DNA from: Brachyspira pilosicoli
GTDB lineage: Bacteria; Spirochaetota; Brachyspiria; Brachyspirales; Brachyspiraceae
Assembly (NCBI RefSeq): GCF_008016535.1
Contig: NZ_SAXY01000058.1
Span: 1-64,000, forward strand
Length of the DNA: 64,000 bases
Reading direction: 5' to 3'
Part shown: positions 2,609 through 54,905 of the stretch, in pieces
Layout of the letters: each line of letters begins with the position of its first letter
Position numbering within the stretch: the stretch's first letter is position 1
Position numbers and translations under genes: made by a program
The notes under the pieces: model-generated
Databases searched by the model: none
What the model was told of the DNA's origin: nothing
What the model saw: the letters and a program-made list of their open reading frames with translations, nothing else

Positions 2609-2932
2609 ATGAAATCTGTTTATTTAATTAGGTTTATAGACAGTCTACAGTCTACAGTCTACAGTCTACAGTCTACAGTCTACAGTCTACAGTCTACAGT
2701 CTACAGTAGTATAATTTTAAATATATTTAACCAAATTAAAAAATATTACTCATTAATATTATATAACATTATTTTTGTATTGCATAAAAAATCAAATAAT
2801 TGTTTTTCTGACAAAATTAAAACATACATCAAAAAATTAATACTATTATATTTATTAAAAAATAATCATTATAAAAATTCAATCAAAAAAATAAGGAGAA
2901 ATATATATGGCTGGCTTTATGGATTTTATTAA
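2609..2932 (+). CDS. Leaderless upstream ORF that reads through the heptamer array (candidate phase-variable leader)
   Basis: 107 codons. It opens MKSVYLIRFID, then three copies of the heptapeptide SLQSTVY encoded by the 7-bp repeat, then 78 codons of Lys/Ile/Tyr-rich sequence that stop at 2932, 26 nt inside the next gene (start 2907). There is no ribosome-binding site; the ATG sits 7 nt after the -10 box. The other two frames leaving the array stop within four codons, so the long open run is notable in such AT-rich DNA. The opening resembles MKTDILIQIIVD at 53925, in the same frame relative to its array. No function is known for the peptide; I infer a role in coupling translation to the following gene. 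It could also be chance. Confidence 0.4.
   Translation: MKSVYLIRFIDSLQSTVYSLQSTVYSLQSTVYSSIILNIFNQIKKYYSLILYNIIFVLHKKSNNCFSDKIKTYIKKLILLYLLKNNHYKNSIKKIRRNIYGWLYGFY
2641..2707 (+). repeat. Heptanucleotide tandem array (CAGTCTA), about 9.5 copies
   Basis: Nine perfect CAGTCTA units followed by CAGTA. The ends are small imperfect palindromes (TAGACAGTCTA on the left, CTACAGTAG on the right). The same array, same flanks, reversed, is at 53840-53893. It starts about 32 nt after the leaderless ATG. A change of one unit shifts the frame by one. Confidence 0.97.
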
Positions 2933-3266
2933 TGATGCTGTTAATTCAGCTATTAATAGTAATGATAAGGATAGTTTTTTTAAAGTGGCATGCCTTTTAG
3001 TATATGCTAATAATGATACTGCTTCAAAAACAGATATTGAGTTATCAACAGAGCTTTATAATACAATATTTTTTAATGAGCCTATGATATCTATTCAAAT
3101 GAATAAAAAACTAAAGAAGATATATCAGGATATTTGTGATAATGGATATGATCCTGATGATGTTATAGAAGATATTTTAAATGGAAGAATAGATAGAAAT
3201 AAACTTAAAATATTTTTTGTATGTGCTTGTATTTTAGGATGTATGCCTAATGATTATGGAGAATAG
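2907..3266 (+). CDS. Small acidic helical protein, family not recognised
   Basis: 119 residues with a strong ribosome-binding site (AAGGAG, 6-7 nt before the ATG). No signal peptide or clear membrane span. It opens MAGFMDFINDAVNSAINS and looks largely helical. It holds five cysteines, three of them clustered near the end (VCACILGC). Its size and alternating acidic and hydrophobic helices are faintly TerB-like, but I would not assign that. The next gene, a radical SAM/SPASM enzyme, begins 6 nt downstream, so the two are surely co-transcribed. The small protein may be the enzyme's partner or substrate. The start lies inside the end of a repeat-bearing upstream ORF. Confidence 0.75.
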   Translation: MAGFMDFINDAVNSAINSNDKDSFFKVACLLVYANNDTASKTDIELSTELYNTIFFNEPMISIQMNKKLKKIYQDICDNGYDPDDVIEDILNGRIDRNKLKIFFVCACILGCMPNDYGE

Positions 3267-34268: not shown

Positions 34269-34391
34269 ATGATGAACTATATGAACTATATATTTAACAT
34301 CACGCATCGCATCGCATCGCATCGCATCGCATCGCATCGCATCGCATCGCATCGCATCGCATCGCATCGCATCGCATCGCATCGCATATAA
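34269..34391 (+). CDS. Leaderless upstream ORF through the pentamer array (currently stops after the array)
   Basis: Opens MMNYMNYIFNIT, then repeats of HRIAS coded by the 5-bp units, and stops at TAA 34389-34391. With one unit more (or two fewer) the frame would leave the array as AYKLNSVSINTLSYLNK and run 58 codons without a stop to TAA 34561-34563, overlapping the start of the lipoprotein gene at 34557. The third frame stops at once. No ribosome-binding site. Translation is inferred from the pattern shared with the cassettes at 2574 and 53961. Confidence 0.4.
   Translation: MMNYMNYIFNITHRIASHRIASHRIASHRIASHRIASHRI
34303..34387 (+). repeat. Pentanucleotide tandem array (CGCAT), 17 copies
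   Basis: Seventeen perfect CGCAT units, 85 bp. GC-rich compared with its flanks. Perfect identity of all units suggests active slippage. The unit is not a multiple of three. Confidence 0.98.
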
Positions 34392-34556: not shown

Positions 34557-34949
34557 ATGTTAAATAATTTGAATAAAAAAATTATTAAAATTGTTGTCAG
34601 CATTTTTTTGTTAGCTTTAATTTCAATAAGCTGTGAATCGAAACAAGATCCTACAAAACAAGATCCTATTACTTTCAGACCTATGGATTTAGTTGGCACA
34701 TGGTATAGTACAGATGGAAAAGCTGATAGTTTTACTATAACATACGAAGGCTATATGACTTTAAATGATGGGTCTCAATCTAAAACCATTCCAATAGAAA
34801 ACTGGAGATATACTATGAGTAATGAAGTTACTTCCTATGAGCTGTTTTCGGGTATAGTACGTTTTTATTTCAAAAGTTCTAGTGAATGTGAGGTGATTAT
34901 TAGTACTGCAAGCGGAGAATCACGAGGGTATTTCAGAAAAGCAGTATAA
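34557..34949 (+). CDS. Small lipoprotein, lipocalin-like pattern
   Basis: 130 residues with a signal ending at the lipobox LISISC, a short linker, then a beta-rich domain beginning MDLVGTWYSTDGKADSFTI and repeating short strand-turn units to RGYFRKAV. The GTW opening and strand pattern are like small calycin-type lipoproteins, common in Brachyspira, but no function is known. Strong AAGGAG site. Preceded by the pentamer-repeat leader, so its expression may be switched. Confidence 0.8.
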   Translation: MLNNLNKKIIKIVVSIFLLALISISCESKQDPTKQDPITFRPMDLVGTWYSTDGKADSFTITYEGYMTLNDGSQSKTIPIENWRYTMSNEVTSYELFSGIVRFYFKSSSECEVIISTASGESRGYFRKAV

Positions 34950-47539: not shown

Positions 47540-48595
47540 TTAATAACTGTATGATAATTTACACTCTACAACATTATCTATACCTTCTATGCCTTCAATA
47601 GGTATATAGTATAATAATTCAAAATCAAAATTATTATAGCTAATTAAAGCTTTGATTGTGAAGTCCATTAAATAATTTGGAGAATGTGAGAAATATGAAA
47701 TAATACTAAAAATACTGTCAACAAATGAAGTATATAATCCTATAGAATAAAATGAATGGCTTTGTTCATAAAAATATTCTATATATGGAATAAATACCCA
47801 ATTTTGTGATATGTAATTATAATTTATTCCAATTAGAGATTTTATGCCGTCAGTATTTTTATATATTTGGTCATTATATAAAAGGTCATAATTTATATTT
47901 CCATAGAGTTTTAAATTAAAATCAAATATATATGAGGCTTCTAGTCCGAGTGCAACATTATTTTTTAAGTTTAAATCATATTTATATTTAACAATGCCCA
48001 TTAAACCCAACTCGGTTGTAGAATATTTTGCATAATACCAAGCAGTATAAAATTGAGGCTCTTCCAAAAGGTCTATAGATTTTGTATCGGTTATAAATCC
48101 TATGGAATGAGTTATATTATCTTGATAAATATTAAGCTCTGTATTATATAGAGAATTATAATCATCATAAAATACACTATCTTCAACAAATATATATTGT
48201 CTGTTAAAACCTTCACCAAAATGGAATTTTCTTTTTCCAATATAAAATGCCATTACATCATTTAAATATGAGAACTCTATTTCATCAAATGTAAATGTTA
48301 TAAATCCATCATTTTTTTCTTTTAAGCTAGAAGTAGACATATCAAATTCAAGATCATATTTTGTATACACTCTAATAGCTGGCTTAAATATAAAATAAAA
48401 GTTAGGATTTAATAATTCAAAACCTATATAAAAATAACTATCATTACTAAGTACATCATTTTTTATAAACTCACTAGGCTCTAAATCTATATAACTAAGT
48501 CTATTTTCAATACCAAATTTAGGACTTATAATTGCAAATGATGTATTAAAAAATATACCTAGTAATAATAAAGTTAATATAATAAATTTTTTCAT
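47540..48595 (-). CDS. Putative outer-membrane beta-barrel protein
   Basis: 351 residues. Signal peptide KKFIILTLLLLGIFFNTSFA, then alternating aromatic/hydrophobic strands and Asn/Asp-rich turns, ending in VVECKLSYSY with an aromatic final residue. No family recognised. Last gene of the envelope cluster 47540-53833; it follows the LolA-like gene after 9 nt. Confidence 0.75.
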   Translation of the reverse strand: MKKFIILTLLLLGIFFNTSFAIISPKFGIENRLSYIDLEPSEFIKNDVLSNDSYFYIGFELLNPNFYFIFKPAIRVYTKYDLEFDMSTSSLKEKNDGFITFTFDEIEFSYLNDVMAFYIGKRKFHFGEGFNRQYIFVEDSVFYDDYNSLYNTELNIYQDNITHSIGFITDTKSIDLLEEPQFYTAWYYAKYSTTELGLMGIVKYKYDLNLKNNVALGLEASYIFDFNLKLYGNINYDLLYNDQIYKNTDGIKSLIGINYNYISQNWVFIPYIEYFYEQSHSFYSIGLYTSFVDSIFSIISYFSHSPNYLMDFTIKALISYNNFDFELLYYIPIEGIEGIDNVVECKLSYSY

Positions 48596-48604
48596 AAATA
48601 ATTA

Positions 48605-49282
48605 TTAATTAAATAAACCAAATAATGCCTTCATATTCTCGCTTCTAAAATACGAGCTAGTAACATCAGAGGATTCCATTCTCTCCACATTACAAACAGT
48701 ACTTAAATTAGTGTTAATTATAAGATTATAAAATTCCATCTTACTAAAACCGCCGCTGCTGCTTATTTTATAAATGCCTTTTTTTATAGCCTTTCCTGTA
48801 TTATCAAAAAAATCTATTATATAATCTTTGCCTTCTTTTTTTAGAAGAGCCTTAGCATATGGAACATTTTTGCTGTTTTTTATTAAACTAACACTATTAT
48901 CAGCATTAACACTCTCAATCTTATAATCATTAATAAAATTAACAGACATTATATCGCTCATATTAGCAGCACCTGTTATAACATAATTGCCTGATATTTT
49001 TAAAGCCGAAACTTGATTTCTTCCCATAACAAAAGAGCCTTGAGTGTTTGCAAGAAAAAGACTCTTACTATTTTTTAAATATACTAGTTTATAATTTCTT
49101 CCTGTGATAAGCTCAAAATCACTAACAACACTCGTACCTTTTTTACTGTCTGTATCTACAAAGTTGCCTATCAATCTGGCGTTTTTTCCATCTATATGAT
49201 ATAAACTAACAAACTCATTAAAAATATTTTTTGAGTATAAAACATTAGCAAATATAAATATTATTAATAAAAACTTATACAT
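48605..49282 (-). CDS. LolA-like periplasmic carrier protein (outer-membrane lipoprotein-sorting type)
   Basis: 225 residues with signal YKFLLIIFIFANVLYS. The mature part is built of short strands around IGNFVDTDSKKGTSVVSDFE, GSFVMGRNQV and LLKKEGKDYIIDFFD, which fits the LolA/LolB half-barrel seen in outer-membrane lipoprotein-sorting proteins. The 8-nt overlap with the FtsX-like gene (ATGTATAA) and the LolD-like ATPase next to it support a lipid or lipoprotein shuttle. Family call is by pattern and context, not by a strict motif. Confidence 0.68.
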   Translation of the reverse strand: MYKFLLIIFIFANVLYSKNIFNEFVSLYHIDGKNARLIGNFVDTDSKKGTSVVSDFELITGRNYKLVYLKNSKSLFLANTQGSFVMGRNQVSALKISGNYVITGAANMSDIMSVNFINDYKIESVNADNSVSLIKNSKNVPYAKALLKKEGKDYIIDFFDNTGKAIKKGIYKISSSGGFSKMEFYNLIINTNLSTVCNVERMESSDVTSSYFRSENMKALFGLFN

Positions 49283-50492
49283 ATTTGATTACCTCTATTA
49301 TAGGCATTCTTATTACTTTTATTATAGGATATATTCCAGAAAGTATAGAAACACCTAATACCCATATAAATATTAAAATAATGTCTTTTAATCTAAATAA
49401 TAAATTTAAATCATATCCGTCAGTAGAGCCCGGAAACTGGAGTCTTATATTAAAAATATCTATTATACCAGATATACCATAAGAAACAAATATAGATATA
49501 ATTGAGCTAATTACAGCTACTATTATAATTTCTAAAAATAAAAGAAGAGTTACATTTTTTATATTTATTCCTAATGCTCTCATTGTACCAAACTCATTTA
49601 AACGCTCTAAAAAGTTTGTAGTTAATATTTGCATAACTGATACAAATACTAATACACTTAAAATACCTAAAGCCATAAGATAATTATCATTATACATCTT
49701 AATAACAGCAATGAAATATGTATTTAAATCTTTCCAATCTTTAGCTTCGTAATTTAAATTATTAGAATTAAAATAATCGTTTAAAGAGTTTTTTACTTCT
49801 GTAGCCTTGCTATAATCATTTAAATAAATAAGCAAATTATGAGCATTTCCTTCTTCTAAACCAAAAGTAGTGTAAGCAGCATTTAGAGGACAATAAAGAA
49901 TCATAGGGTCTAAATAACTATTATTTAATGTTATAGAACCAACAGCCATTAAAGATCCTAATGTGATGCCATCTCCAAAATCTGTCATAAAATTTAAATA
50001 TGGGGTATCATCATAATTAAGATTAAAATATTTACCCAAATCGTACCCCAAAACAACAGTATCCACATCATCATTAAATATAGGTGTACCCTCTTTTAAC
50101 ATAACAGTAGACATTACTTTTGAAGAATCCTCATAAGCATAGCCTACAAATATTTTACTTTTATTTTCATTACCTACTATTCCGTTTAAATCTAATTTTT
50201 TCTGATAATCATCAATGCCTTCAATAGTTTCTAATTTTTTATAAAGTATGTCAAAATCAGAATTATTTAACATATTGATTTTTTCGCTTGTAGTATCCCA
50301 ATAAGATTTATCAGCAATGACAACAGAACCTCCGCTTGTATTTATTATTGATATAATTCCTTCTTCAGAGTAATTGTTGTATCCGCTTATAATCATAAGT
50401 GAAACAAAAGAAACTATTATAAGTATCATATTTAAAATAGTTCTTATTTTATTATACCATAAATTATCCCAAGCCAATTTTATAATATTCAT
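49275..50492 (-). CDS. FtsX/LolC-like ABC transporter permease
   Basis: 405 residues with four membrane segments: one at the N-terminus (MILIIVSFVSLMIISGYN), a 220-residue periplasmic domain, then three spans, with FLERLNEFGTMRALGINIKN as the coupling helix and the C-terminal PIIKVIRMPIIEVIKYV. This is the MacB/LolCE topology. It overlaps the ATPase by 4 nt and the LolA-like gene by 8 nt. Confidence 0.9.
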   Translation of the reverse strand: MNIIKLAWDNLWYNKIRTILNMILIIVSFVSLMIISGYNNYSEEGIISIINTSGGSVVIADKSYWDTTSEKINMLNNSDFDILYKKLETIEGIDDYQKKLDLNGIVGNENKSKIFVGYAYEDSSKVMSTVMLKEGTPIFNDDVDTVVLGYDLGKYFNLNYDDTPYLNFMTDFGDGITLGSLMAVGSITLNNSYLDPMILYCPLNAAYTTFGLEEGNAHNLLIYLNDYSKATEVKNSLNDYFNSNNLNYEAKDWKDLNTYFIAVIKMYNDNYLMALGILSVLVFVSVMQILTTNFLERLNEFGTMRALGINIKNVTLLLFLEIIIVAVISSIISIFVSYGISGIIDIFNIRLQFPGSTDGYDLNLLFRLKDIILIFIWVLGVSILSGIYPIIKVIRMPIIEVIKYV

Positions 50493-51166
50493 AAACTTCT
50501 CTCCAATATACCATCTTTCATAGTATAAATAGTATCAACATATTTTTTTATAGATTCATCATGCGAAATAAAAAATCCTATTCCATTTCTGTTTTTTATT
50601 TCTTTTGTTATATATTCATAAATAAATTTACTAGTGTCTGTGTCAAGATTTGCACTTATCTCATCGCCGAATATATAAGGTGCATCAGTAACTAACGCTC
50701 TTGCTATTGCCACTCTTTGCTTTTGTCCGCCTGAAAGCTGTTCGGGCTTTTTGTTTTTTAAATCATCAATTTTTAGATTTTCTAATATTTTCATGACTTT
50801 ATTTTTAGTGTCTTTATTATCTACATTTAAAAATCTTAATGGTAAAGCCGCATTATCAAATACTGTTTGAGTTTTAAGTAATTCTAAAGATTGAAGTATT
50901 AAGCCAATATTAATAAGTCTGAACTTACTTCTTTTATAATCATTTAAATTAGAAATCTCTTCAGAGTCCCAATATACAGAACCTGTTGTTGGAGTATCTA
51001 TACTTGAGAGAATATGAAGCAATGTACTTTTTCCAGCACCGCTAACTCCATTAATCCAAACTATCTCTCCTTTCTCAATTTCTAAGTTAATATCTTTGTT
51101 TGCCAATATATTATAATATTTTGTTTTATATAATTTTGATATATTGCGGCAACTAATTGCCTTCAT
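50489..51166 (-). CDS. LolD/MacB-like ABC transporter ATP-binding protein
   Basis: 225 residues. Walker A GVSGAGKSTLLHILSSID, signature [16 protein letters not shown], Walker B YIFGDEISANLD (an unusual EI in place of EP), H-loop FFISHDESIK. Pairs with the FtsX-like permease directly downstream. Such ATPases drive mechanotransmission rather than channel transport. Confidence 0.92.
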   Translation of the reverse strand: MKAISCRNISKLYKTKYYNILANKDINLEIEKGEIVWINGVSGAGKSTLLHILSSIDTPTTGSVYWDSEEISNLNDYKRSKFRLINIGLILQSLELLKTQTVFDNAALPLRFLNVDNKDTKNKVMKILENLKIDDLKNKKPEQLSGGQKQRVAIARALVTDAPYIFGDEISANLDTDTSKFIYEYITKEIKNRNGIGFFISHDESIKKYVDTIYTMKDGILERSL

Positions 51167-51186
51167 TTTATGCTCCTTATATATTT

Positions 51187-51954
51187 TTATTTAGTATAAT
51201 AAAAGAATTCTCTGCCATTTCTATAACCGTTTTCAAGTAAAAATGTATATAAACCATCTGGATAAATCTGCTTAGCAAGTTCAAGTTCTGCAAATGCATC
51301 TTTTACTTTGTTTGATTTAATATAAGCTACTGATTTATAAATATGCATTCTATACATCATATATTCAGGAAGTGAGTCATAATCTTCAAAAAAATCAATT
51401 ACAGCAGAAAAATTATAATTATTATAATAACCCATTGTGTATATTTGCCATATTGCTATTAACTGTTTTGCTCTGGCATCATTTGGATTTTTAAGCAGAG
51501 CAAGACGGGCATAATTATTCATATCTATTACTATAGTGTATGGAAGTTCGTTGTTTACTGAAGCTAAATTAATTAGTGAGGCAGAAAAATCAGAAAAAGC
51601 TGAATAAATATCAGAATCAGCATTTTTAAATAATTTATCTTTTTTTGTATTATTATGAACATCTAAAAGCATTTTATAACTTTCACTAGCATTTCCAGAT
51701 AAAACAGAAATACTAGACCAAAGTGAGTATGCTTCTATAGATAAATATAATTTCTCTTCAGTTGTTAAATTACTGTTTTTTATTTCATTAACTAACGCTT
51801 CAATTTCAGCATCTTTTAAAATTCTTGCTGCAGAATAAAATTCGCTGTTTTTATTGTTTATATTATTTAATATAGATTCTGCCTGAGGAGATAATGTTAT
51901 TTTTGCTTCCAACAAACTAAATGAAAGTAATATTATAATAAAAATTTTACTCAT
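51187..51954 (-). CDS. Periplasmic helical-repeat protein (TPR-like), 255 residues
   Basis: Signal KIFIIILLSFSLLEA, then helical pairs with TPR-like spacing (ARLALLKNPNDARAKQLIAI; AFAELELAKQIYPDGLYTFLL). The ARLALLKNPNDARA stretch is similar in style to TatT-like T components, but I cannot prove that. Paired with a second such protein just upstream; both sit before the ABC genes. Confidence 0.7.
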   Translation of the reverse strand: MSKIFIIILLSFSLLEAKITLSPQAESILNNINNKNSEFYSAARILKDAEIEALVNEIKNSNLTTEEKLYLSIEAYSLWSSISVLSGNASESYKMLLDVHNNTKKDKLFKNADSDIYSAFSDFSASLINLASVNNELPYTIVIDMNNYARLALLKNPNDARAKQLIAIWQIYTMGYYNNYNFSAVIDFFEDYDSLPEYMMYRMHIYKSVAYIKSNKVKDAFAELELAKQIYPDGLYTFLLENGYRNGREFFYYTK

Positions 51955-51987
51955 CTATTTTCCTTAAATTAAATAATTTAATTAATT

Positions 51988-52704
51988 TTAATAATGTTCA
52001 AATAAACTAACACCTTTTGCATTTTCCTCTTTTACAAAATTTACAAAAGCCGCATCAGGAAATATATTATAAGCCATATCAAAATATTTTTTGTAATTAG
52101 CTTCATCTTTTTCTACAAAGTATATTTGAGACATCCATAAATAAGTAGTATGCTTTTCCCAATCTTCTTTAGCATTTGCTTCTGCTTTTTTGAATATAGG
52201 CATTGATTTATCATATCCGCCTCCATAGAATTTCGGCATAAATGATACATATATAGCTTTACCTAATAATGAAGGGAAATGATTTGGATTTATTGCTAAA
52301 GCCTTATCATATAAATCAATAATTTTATTTGAATACTCCATAAGCTCATTTAATGTAGCATAGTTTACAAATGCTGTCATTAAATCTGCTAATGATGCTA
52401 AATAGTCAGGATCTTTTTCTGAAAGAAGCGGGTCGTTGTTTGCAACATTGTCTTTTAAATATTTGTATATTTTTCTTTTAGACTCTTTACTAGCACGTAC
52501 TTCCATTACAACTGTTACATTAGTTATGATTTGCTTTTGAAGTTTGTCTAATTTCTTCTCTCTTAATCCTTGCACCTGTGCTTCTACAGACTCATCTCCA
52601 GAGTTCATATAAAATGAATTATAAAGCTCATCTATTTCTTTAATGTAGGCAAATGATTTTACACTGAATATTAACAAAAATAATAAAATTAAGTTTTTTT
52701 TCAT
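51988..52704 (-). CDS. Periplasmic helical-repeat protein (TPR-like), 238 residues
   Basis: Signal KKNLILLFLLIFSVKSFA, then TPR-like helices (IIDLYDKALAINPNHFPSLL; YFDMAYNIFPDAAFVNFV). Shares end pattern (Y.IFPDAAFVNFVKEENAKG) with the neighbour's IYPDGLYTFLLENGYRNG, so the two are probably ancient duplicates. Lies 22 nt downstream of the barrel gene. Confidence 0.72.
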   Translation of the reverse strand: MKKNLILLFLLIFSVKSFAYIKEIDELYNSFYMNSGDESVEAQVQGLREKKLDKLQKQIITNVTVVMEVRASKESKRKIYKYLKDNVANNDPLLSEKDPDYLASLADLMTAFVNYATLNELMEYSNKIIDLYDKALAINPNHFPSLLGKAIYVSFMPKFYGGGYDKSMPIFKKAEANAKEDWEKHTTYLWMSQIYFVEKDEANYKKYFDMAYNIFPDAAFVNFVKEENAKGVSLFEHY

Positions 52705-52726: not shown

Positions 52727-53833
52727 TTAAAAACTAATAGCACTAATTACTACATTTATTATTAAACTTTTATTATTATCAGTAGCTAAAGTTATTTGTA
52801 GAGGTGCAGTAGAGAATAAATTAAATCCTATGCCGCCTCCTACCATGTATAACATCTCACCATCATTAATACTTTGATATTCATATTTTCCATATCCAAT
52901 ATTTCCAAAACCCACTAAATATAAATCATTCCAACCAGATGGCAAGAATCTCATATATAATTTATATTCTAAATGTAGAAATGTTAAAAAGCTATAAGGC
53001 TCTACATATTTTTCAGCATTGTTTAATGGAAGCATCTGCAATATGCATAAATATTTCTCTCCAATAGAATAATTCTTTTTAGAGTCATTAAAATAAGCAC
53101 TATAACTAATATACGGCATAATGCCCAATTCTCCCCAATAGTGGAAAAATGAATAAGGCATAGATGCATATATTCCATAAGAATATTCTTTTCCATTTGG
53201 TATAATATTAAAATCTATTCCTGTATTAAATTTTAATTTATTAATAGAATTATCATAAATTAAAGCAGATACATCTACACTCTGCTGAAGCTTGAAAATA
53301 TTATTTATTTCTTTAGTGTTGCTGTTTAAATCAAGTATTTTACCAACGTTAAGGTTATATGTGAGAGAAACATTTTCAAACATATATCCTGTTGAAAAAT
53401 TACCATAAGATTCTAAGGTATCAAAAGTATATTTATCAGTATATGGAATTAATCCTTGTTTATATTTTAGATTTATAAAAAACCTATCGTATCTATATTC
53501 CATGCCAGCATATGCAAAAAGTCCAAAAGAGTATGAGCCATATTCATAGCTTATACCTATACGTGGAATATAGAGATATGAAGCATTTTTTCTATATAGA
53601 TATCCAATATCAATAAAGAATGGAAAGCCTGTAACATGGTAAGTCATATAAAAACTTGATCTTTTGAATGTGTCTTGTGCTTTTAAATTTAAAGAACTAA
53701 TAGATATAAATAAACAGAAAATTATTAGGAATAATTTAGAAGTTTTTATATTAAGCCTTAATGAAATTTGACTAAAAAAAAATTGATGCAACACCAAAAG
53801 AAAAATGGTTAATTGTAAAGTGTAATTTTCCAA
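52727..53833 (-). CDS. Putative outer-membrane beta-barrel protein lacking a normal start codon
   Basis: The mature part is a barrel-like protein of about 315 residues with frequent aromatic strands (YGSYSFGLFAYAGMEYRYD) and Gly-rich end (YMVGGGIGFNLFS). Where a signal peptide begins (KTSKLFLIIFCLFISISS) and 6 nt after an AAGG site, the codon is ATA (53749-53747), not ATG. The frame is open upstream through 28 codons to the heptamer array, with only TTG (53833) or GTG as starts. One more array unit would put it in frame with the leaderless ATG at 53925. First gene of a seven-gene envelope cluster. Confidence 0.75.
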   Translation of the reverse strand: MENYTLQLTIFLLVLHQFFFSQISLRLNIKTSKLFLIIFCLFISISSLNLKAQDTFKRSSFYMTYHVTGFPFFIDIGYLYRKNASYLYIPRIGISYEYGSYSFGLFAYAGMEYRYDRFFINLKYKQGLIPYTDKYTFDTLESYGNFSTGYMFENVSLTYNLNVGKILDLNSNTKEINNIFKLQQSVDVSALIYDNSINKLKFNTGIDFNIIPNGKEYSYGIYASMPYSFFHYWGELGIMPYISYSAYFNDSKKNYSIGEKYLCILQMLPLNNAEKYVEPYSFLTFLHLEYKLYMRFLPSGWNDLYLVGFGNIGYGKYEYQSINDGEMLYMVGGGIGFNLFSTAPLQITLATDNNKSLIINVVISAISF

Positions 53834-53925
53834 GACTACTGTAGACTGTAGACTGTAGACTGTAGACTGTAGACTGTAGACTGTAGACTGTCTACAATGA
53901 TTTGTATCAAAATATCAGTTTTCAT
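53809..53925 (-). CDS. Leaderless upstream ORF through the heptamer array (currently out of frame with the barrel gene)
   Basis: Opens MKTDILIQIIVD, then SLQSTVY repeats, then SWKITLYN and stop (53811-53809). The ATG is 7 nt after the -10 box, no ribosome-binding site. The distance to the barrel frame is 92 nt, which is two more than a multiple of three; adding one 7-nt unit, or removing two, joins the frames. Opening residues and frame match the ORF at 2609. Confidence 0.4.
53840..53893 (-). repeat. Heptanucleotide tandem array (TGTAGAC on the plus strand), 7 copies plus partial
   Basis: Seven perfect units from 53840 to 53888 plus a partial unit. Reverse complement of the array at 2641-2707, including both end palindromes (CTACTGTAG and TAGACTGTCTA on the plus strand). 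Confidence 0.97.
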
Positions 53926-53932
53926 AGGCACT

Positions 53933-53961
53933 AATATAACATAATTTAATAATTATGTCAA
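53933..53961 (-). promoter_or_regulatory. Promoter of the second heptamer leader and envelope cluster
   Basis: TTGACA (53961-53956), 17-nt spacer, TATATT (53938-53933), then AGTGCCT and ATG. First 15 bases identical to the promoter at 2574. Confidence 0.7.
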
Positions 53962-54024
53962 TAAAAAATATGAAAAATTTGTCATGGAGCCATAGATATT
54001 GCACGTTTTTTAGTTAAAATAAAG

Positions 54025-54070
54025 TAGGTATTCCTTATAATATAAATAACCCAATTTAAAGGAATACCTA
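54025..54070 (+). promoter_or_regulatory. Inverted repeat over the transposase ribosome-binding site and start
   Basis: TAGGTATTCCTT (54025-54036) and AAGGAATACCTA (54059-54070) are perfect 12-bp complements; the second arm contains the AAAGGA ribosome-binding site and the A of the ATG. RNA started outside the element would fold and hide the start, as described for several IS elements that avoid read-through expression. Confidence 0.7.
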
Positions 54071-54905
54071 TGAAAGAATATACTTCAAATCAAAGAAAAA
54101 AGATAGTTCTAAAAATTAATAAAGTTAAGAATAAAGAAATATTAGCTTCTAAATATGATATTAGTATTAGAACATATTACTATTGGAAAAAACAATTAGA
54201 AACTTGTTCTATTATAAAACCTAAATCTACTACACTTAAAACTAATAAAAATAAATTGAAAAATAAGAAAATTATTAAAAGAATAATCGAGATAAGAAAA
54301 TTATATGGTTATGGTAAATTTAAAATAAAAAAACAATTAGAGTTAGAAGACATTAAAGTAGGAACAACAGCAATAGAAACTGTTCTAAAAGAACATAATT
54401 TGTATAGAAGTAAAAAGAAAAAAATTAAGAGAAAACATAAAGGAAAGCATGCGATTTATATCAAGGAGGCAGGGGAAAAAGTACAAATAGATGTTACGCT
54501 CTGCGGACTTCGTAATATGCTTTTTTTGGTGAAATACGTTATTATCAATTTACTGCTGTAGATTTAGCAACGAGAATGAGCTTTAGATATTTATACAATA
54601 AAAAAATATATATAATATTTTCTTTCTTTGTATTCATTGTATTAAATAGATAATGGTATTAAATTTATTTATCATAGGCATTTGTTTAAAATATAAGATA
54701 CATTATATTTATTTTGTAATAAAAATTGCATTAAAAAGTTTACAGTCCTGCGGCTTCCATTGGAATTTACGTAGACACATACAGCTATATAATTTTATAA
54801 AGACATAACCGAGACAAAAAATAATTTTATAATTTTTACCCTAAAGAATTATTCTTAGAGAAAGCTAATCAAAAATTAAGAAAATATAATAACTTTTTTA
54901 ATTAA
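54070..54905 (+). pseudogene. IS481-like transposase relic
   Basis: An intact N-terminal helix-turn-helix part (KEYTSNQRKKIVLKINKVK; YDISIRTYYYWKKQLE) leads to the DDE core start GEKVQIDV. The frame then breaks. The core continues in another phase as GEIRYYQFTAVDLATRMSF (near 54530-54600), and a C-terminal piece HNRDKK...FYPKELFLEKANQKL is recognisable at 54804-54905. The stretch between (about 54610-54800) is not transposase-like. At the break lies CGCTCTGCGGACTTCGTA, also found in the dispersed repeats. Dead element; its end touches the phosphoribosyltransferase gene. Confidence 0.8.

Follow-up and report, generated by a model that had tools for sequence, protein, structure and literature searches.

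Contingency genes such as lic of H. influenzae, opa of Neisseria and the heptamer-bearing neuO of E. coli carry a repeat inside the ORF, between the start codon and the body of the protein. In the pilus loci pil1 and pil3 of S. gallolyticus, non-triplet tandem repeats lie in a short leader ORF with a Shine–Dalgarno (SD) start. There, GCAGA repeats change the length of the leader peptide, the frame sets how far the ribosome reaches, and the longer peptide opens a terminator in front of the surface genes, as experimentally proven at pil1 (Danne et al. 2014, PMC3894217). Dispersed, intergenic TAACTGA heptamers that mostly point at genes are known from Beggiatoaceae; their unit introduces a stop into each forward frame, and the arrays end most frequently immediately ahead of a start codon (MacGregor 2015, PMC4679880). 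Within the open-licence literature, our searches for a mechanism of the pil1 type led only to pilus loci, those of one streptococcus and of a close relative, and no report was found that brings phase variation and tandem repeats together in Brachyspira. The phase-variation papers on this genus, judged mainly by their titles, contained nothing resembling the leaders described below; the tandem-repeat papers include several on MLVA strain typing among the matches listed, and the main text of a survey of frame transitions does not name Brachyspira (PMC3711429).

Here we describe repeat leaders in Brachyspira that share with pil1 and pil3 the non-triplet repeat in a short leader ORF, a frame that would set the reach of the ribosome, and surface genes behind. 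They differ from pil1 in occurring across a spirochaete genus, in their units (ACAGTCT or CGCAT), in a mostly leaderless-looking ATG, in a leader that is usually open to the next start, and in the scarcity of terminator-like hairpins. The ACAGTCT arrays resemble the TAACTGA heptamers in being dispersed and intergenic; unlike these, ACAGTCT is stop-free and stands behind its own ATG, which places it outside that type. Most of the Brachyspira repeats sit in a separate ORF before a gene with its own start, in contrast to the contingency genes; at one outer-membrane barrel gene, however, the repeat may lie between start codon and protein body just as it does there.

The barrel locus

The window, i.e. 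the whole 64,000-nucleotide stretch of Brachyspira pilosicoli DNA analysed, contains three repeat leaders, two with heptamers and one with pentamers. The heptamer leader of the barrel gene is read on the minus strand, as are all features of this section. It opens with an exact-consensus −35 box (TTGACA, 53956–53961), a 17-nt spacer and a −10 box (TATATT, 53933–53938), followed 7 nt downstream by an ATG at 53925 that has no SD sequence. As this promoter directly precedes the ATG, a leaderless start at 53925 is plausible on sequence grounds. The ATG and the codons preceding the array (53892–53925) lead into ACAGTCT repeats in gene sense (53838–53891; period 7, 7.7 copies, 100% matches) that are stop-free in every sense frame. 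The ATG frame passes through them without a stop and is closed by a TAG at the array end (53836–53838); the locus thus reads OFF in the assembly. A different frame, that of the barrel, can be read without interruption from 53914 across the entire array and on to its stop codon (52729–52727), and it is the only one open throughout the post-array spacer (53750–53837), in which a TTGCA motif common to many leader spacers is found (53787–53791). At the end of the spacer, an SD-like AAGG (53756–53759) stands six bases before an ATA (53747–53749), a single-base difference in one assembly from the orthologue in another Brachyspira genome (G016), where an identical AAGG precedes ATG. A signal-peptide-like sequence, judged by eye, follows directly.

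These observations agree with an earlier note on this DNA, which had pointed to ATA at the expected start (after AAGG with 6-nt spacing and before a signal peptide), to a barrel frame open upstream into the array, and to a leaderless-looking, out-of-frame ATG at 53925. Its proposal that the present unit number means OFF fits the closed ATG frame, and frame arithmetic bears out that one unit more, or two fewer, would bring this ATG into the barrel frame. At such other unit numbers the frames permit a repeat between the start codon and the barrel body. We conclude that the locus is a candidate fused variant of a leader switch, predicted to be OFF in the assembly.

With pil1 it has in common a leader ORF that begins at a start codon of its own and contains a non-triplet repeat and, judging by the sequence, a unit number that would set an early or a late leader stop. 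The downstream gene lacks its own start with SD (ATA stands in its place), and a test for hairpins with a T-tract against shuffled sequences gave no intrinsic terminator between repeats and barrel: the best hairpin, at −3.4, was equalled by 49 of 100 shuffles (4 of 12 in a smaller run). Because terminator and own start are both missing, the barrel is better described as a variant that would work like pil1 than as a member of that class.

The barrel gene itself (52727–53749) is intact, with 340 codons and without its own ATG. No Pfam or NCBIfam family matched the protein. An AlphaFold2 model built with twelve aligned homologues consists mainly of beta strands, plus two short helices, and is of moderate confidence (mean pLDDT 63.5, pTM 0.63). 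Each of the 50 listed PDB matches is an outer-membrane barrel; 11 of them have E 0.001 or better, and TM-scores to the query are 0.25–0.45. On the basis of this model, and of the signal peptide recognized by eye, the product is assigned as a predicted outer-membrane β-barrel. The closest homologue, in G016, is identical at 322 of 340 residues; there, ATG follows the same AAGG and the array is absent. The pair shows dN 0.021 and dS 0.252, no indels, and 13, 3 and 44 differences at the three codon positions; the gene was therefore under selection until recently at least. Among twenty other homologous places in 19 genus genomes, inspected by eye, 16 have ATG, three have TTG, one is startless at the site and none has ATA. 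The earlier note had named homologues with ATG at this position and no array as an outcome that would refute its proposal. This outcome is seen in part, in that the closest homologue has ATG without an array and most places have ATG; the switch is not refuted thereby. Since the closest homologue has ATG and lacks the array, the own start was probably lost, and the repeat leader gained, on this lineage; the comparison suggests that both are derived.

The leader sequences that flank the barrel array match the leader of an unrelated locus, L070 in G013, which stands before a different gene; identity is 85% over 54 columns (53913–53966) and 82% over 56 columns (53774–53829). This similarity ends at about 53774, near the onset of similarity to the native 5′ region of the G016 gene. 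In G016 the end of a comF-like ORF, a relative of the window's comF-like phosphoribosyltransferase gene, directly precedes the barrel with no IS between (synteny by eye); in the window, a truncated IS481-like transposase (54070–54561) lies between array and comF-like gene. In the simplest history, a leader cassette would have replaced the native promoter in frame, after which the ATG could decay to ATA. Beside the transposase, a 21-base stretch at about 53980–54000, possibly an IS end, recurs exactly upstream of one other leader (L058) and near-exactly upstream of a second (L059). A paralogue with 53% identity and an ATG is encoded elsewhere in the same genome.

As the earlier note had stated, the barrel heads a cluster of seven genes, all on the same strand and extending from 53749 to 47540. 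The six behind it (47540–52704) would encode two proteins, one with a weak TPR hit, an ABC ATPase, an ABC permease, a signal-peptide protein and a second barrel-like protein; a family search covered the first two, and names other than the TPR hit were given by eye. An Rfam search of the window gave one tRNA only.

Repeat leaders across Brachyspira

Both other leaders of the window lie on the plus strand. The second heptamer leader (2609–2707; ATG at 2609, array 2640–2707) is predicted to be ON, as its ATG frame runs beyond the start of the 119-codon gene behind it (2907–3266). Its orthologue in G013 (L068) is off and has a longer open frame (181 versus 123 codons). The pentamer leader (34269–34387; ATG at 34269, 17 copies of CGCAT at 34303–34387) precedes a lipoprotein-like gene (34557–34949) and is OFF in the assembly.

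The arrays were surveyed with exact patterns, of three units for ACAGTCT in 29 genomes of the family and of five units for CGCAT. ACAGTCT arrays are present in 16 of 26 genus genomes and in none of the three family genomes outside the genus; CGCAT arrays occur in 17 of 26, and one or the other in 22 of 26. The 41 heptamer stretches may correspond to about 37 loci when duplicates and broken arrays are allowed for (L063 repeats L064; L078/L079, L087/L088 and L093/L094 may each be two ends of one array). Eight of them lie at contig ends, as expected if arrays vary or collapse. The 27 pentamer arrays examined come from 14 of the 17 genomes, all save G020, G022 and G025. The barrel array is no one-off and no product of chance: up to 40 further sites in Brachyspira show the same array in the same arrangement. 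In the window's own genome, a lipoprotein relative shows the same layout with CGCAT in place of ACAGTCT. Viral contigs were searched as well; the one array found there is on a contig without the layout. A lipoprotein leader in G005 (L107, contig C1 near 41587) carries degenerate heptamers resembling CTACATT, which may represent a third unit or an array in decay.

Wherever enough sequence is present, the loci follow one design: promoter, ATG, a stop-free array (both ACAGTCT and CGCAT leave all sense frames open), and usually one frame open to the next start. The 68 array stretches, less two duplicates, give 66 loci, and in the 59 that could be scored a promoter is followed by an ATG reading into the array; of the remainder, five are cut upstream, one is N-masked and one (L134) has no ATG. 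Two spacings stand out. Of the 44 leaders that lack an SD, 42 place their ATG 6–11 nt downstream of the −10 box, the misfits being L135, with a nearer SD-preceded ATG, and L076, the promoter of which seems miscalled; the 15 leaders with SD have it 26–43 nt after the box. Every heptamer array with at least 300 nt downstream (35 of 35) has a nearby same-strand ORF of at least 90 codons in the stop-free orientation. With arrays cut short and the barrel row left out, a gene with SD and ATG could be called for 30 of the 35 arrays of heptamers and for 23 of the 27 of pentamers; at one more pentamer locus, L123, the downstream ORF was seen by eye.

The frame from array to next start (within 30 nt) is open in 28 of 35 family representatives, against 7.1 expected from dinucleotide shuffles (P ~2e-23), and in 48 of 56 single loci against 9.7 expected by shuffling. 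Among the 28, the barrel and L059 count almost automatically because both are fused (chance 0.89 and 1.0). A strict control with real, array-free intergenic regions and well-defined starts gave 26 of 31 against 5.9 expected (P ~3e-18), with masking of long ORFs and SD-led small ORFs that somewhat favours closed frames. In a looser intergenic control, the starts of which are badly defined, the count was 27 of 31 against 15.0 (P 5e-6), with spacer lengths and outcomes entered by hand. The grouping into families and part of the gene starts rest on inspection by eye, and the starts at the barrel, L059, L085 and L123 were set by hand; the barrel start entered this test at offset 83, without effect on its outcome, whereas the correct offset of 88 was used for the hairpin test. 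Excluded were five contig-end arrays, the duplicates L063 and L126, and five loci without a usable start (L087, L092, L129, L141, L143). By the rule applied, the open frame is absent in seven of the 35 families (L061, L074, L085, L091, L125, L128, L137); three relatives of L125 do have it, and the frames of L061, L128 and L137 end far short of the gene. L059 (3491–4792), an OmpA-domain lipoprotein in frame from the array with no evident SD and ATG, is possibly a second fused case. As a second case of a lost start it is doubtful, since the relative in G001 has SD and ATG in another frame.

An automatic call placed 11 of the 54 loci with both sides present in the ON state, i.e. below one third. 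One of these (L073) is a false ON, its frame closing at the array end, and two more (L080, L082) are arguably ON, with frames ending near the gene start. The window's genome has nine loci by the two exact patterns, of which 2640 and L057 are ON and 34303, 53838, L058, L059, L060, L061 and L117 are OFF. Comparison between species, with one genome per species, shows that orthologous loci differ in state: 2640 is ON and L068 off, L087 ON and L092 off, L069 ON and L060, L065 and L071 off, and L089 ON with L064, L066, L072, L075, L077, L083, L086 and L090 off. Slippage of the unit number would account for these differences. The switch idea put forward for the barrel is supported by the 59 loci with promoter and ATG into the array, the open frame in 28 of 35 families, and the orthologues in different states.

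Downstream genes and conserved leader features

Twenty downstream proteins were searched against Pfam. The matches comprise OmpA (L059), glycosyltransferase-type domains (L067, L088, L123 and L127, with L119 below cut-off), radical SAM (L073, L074), methyltransferase (L078, L082), MBOAT (L121), zinc ribbon (L062) and DUF1232 (L124) domains, and an outer-membrane barrel below cut-off (L057); the proteins of L060, L070, L118 and L140 had no Pfam match. Many other downstream proteins begin with a lipoprotein-like signal, and CGCAT leaders also precede a creatininase-family gene (L120) and the gene of a glycine reductase component (L137), both identified in the Pfam search. From the Pfam hits and the lipoprotein-like signals, the genes behind the putative switches appear to be mostly, but not only, envelope genes.

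What is conserved in the leaders was addressed with one lipoprotein family that provides nine of them. Differences are spread about equally over the codon positions (330/325/262) and non-synonymous changes make up 554 of the 624 codon differences, by which a function of the leader peptide is ruled out for this family. Despite indels, the open frame of all nine leaders reads the common 3′ part in the same frame, with net indels in multiples of three partly by construction as the leaders were cut to whole codons. The peptide drifts and the frame is kept; hence, it is the open frame that is conserved rather than the peptide, and translation itself seems to be what matters. A terminator cannot serve as universal gate: a terminator-like hairpin better than all 12 shuffles was seen in only 12 of 33 spacers, the barrel spacer being among the 33. 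TTGCA occurs in 20 of 34 spacers against 7.7 expected, often after a T-rich stretch and between array and gene; it was picked by eye, and several rarer 5-mers scored a higher z. An apparently conserved LLxLH peptide motif was discarded, as the identical TTGCA bases occur in three reading frames, which marks TTGCA as a nucleotide motif.

Mechanism and alternative explanations

Taken together, the arrays are probably phase switches within translated leader ORFs, found genus-wide, mostly leaderless-looking and built from two units, with the barrel as a fused variant. In one frame the leader would continue to the downstream gene and in the others it would meet an earlier stop, so that the downstream gene is probably switched whenever a repeat unit is gained or lost. 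Most loci keep their own gene start, and here the ON frame may act by coupling or by keeping Rho away, either of which would fit the spacers without a terminator-like hairpin; at loci with hairpin and T-tract, the ON frame would open a terminator. At the barrel, where ATG has become ATA and the open frame of the leader equals the barrel frame, ON would yield one fused protein and OFF almost none. A counterpoint is that the fused product carries about 60 residues ahead of the signal peptide, which could hinder export. Also on the opposing side are the missing terminator at the barrel, the seven families in which the open frame is absent, the looser intergenic control, the share of ON loci below one third, and the closest homologue with its ATG and no array. 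We infer transcription start, translation, slippage, the change in expression and the effect on the operon from the sequence. A broader version of this mechanism, for which we see the case as evenly balanced, holds that promoter, leaderless leader ORF, non-triplet repeat and TTGCA form portable switches that moved through the genus as a cassette, that lipoproteins, barrels, glycosyltransferases and even metabolic genes are gated by the act of translating the leader and not by the resulting peptide, and that at the barrel such a cassette replaced the gene's own start.

The layout at the barrel invites other readings. AAGG has been kept at its six-base spacing, three homologues use TTG and the spacer contains in-frame TTG and GTG codons, so the ATA or one of these codons might initiate at a low level and the barrel be made regardless of the array. 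None of the twenty homologous places uses ATA, however, and inspection by eye revealed no clear SD for the TTG and GTG codons. In bacteria ATA is not known to serve as more than a weak start codon, which also counts against initiation at this site, and we regard such constitutive low-level synthesis as rather unlikely. The barrel gene might also be on its way out, with IS debris and a foreign leader having displaced its promoter, its ATG decayed and the array in frame by chance. The lost ATG, the truncated transposase next to the array, the paralogue with an intact start and the closed ATG frame would all fit. Against this stand 340 codons without stop or indel and a dN/dS of ~0.08 over the G016 pair, albeit this ratio cannot date the loss of the start; moreover, the leader shows the complete design known from the other loci, and the frame it leaves open coincides exactly with that of the barrel. 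Decay is thus distinctly unlikely in our judgement.

At the level of the genus, the arrays could be DNA or RNA spacers that alter promoter geometry or leader structure through their length, independent of reading frame. It is in line with this that they lie in 5′ regions, downstream of a promoter and ahead of the gene, and that the TTGCA nucleotide motif recurs in different frames. Length control, though, needs no ATG, no stop-free orientation and no open frame, and all three are present nearly always or far above expectation. It is very improbable as an explanation, and the preferred reading remains a switch that acts through the frame of a translated leader.

Conclusions

If this reading is true, many genes across a whole spirochaete genus, most of them surface-related, would flip by repeat slippage via translation of a leader. 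Which genes switch, and in which state they are, would then be predictable from sequence alone, and the leaders would provide a natural set of leaderless starts.
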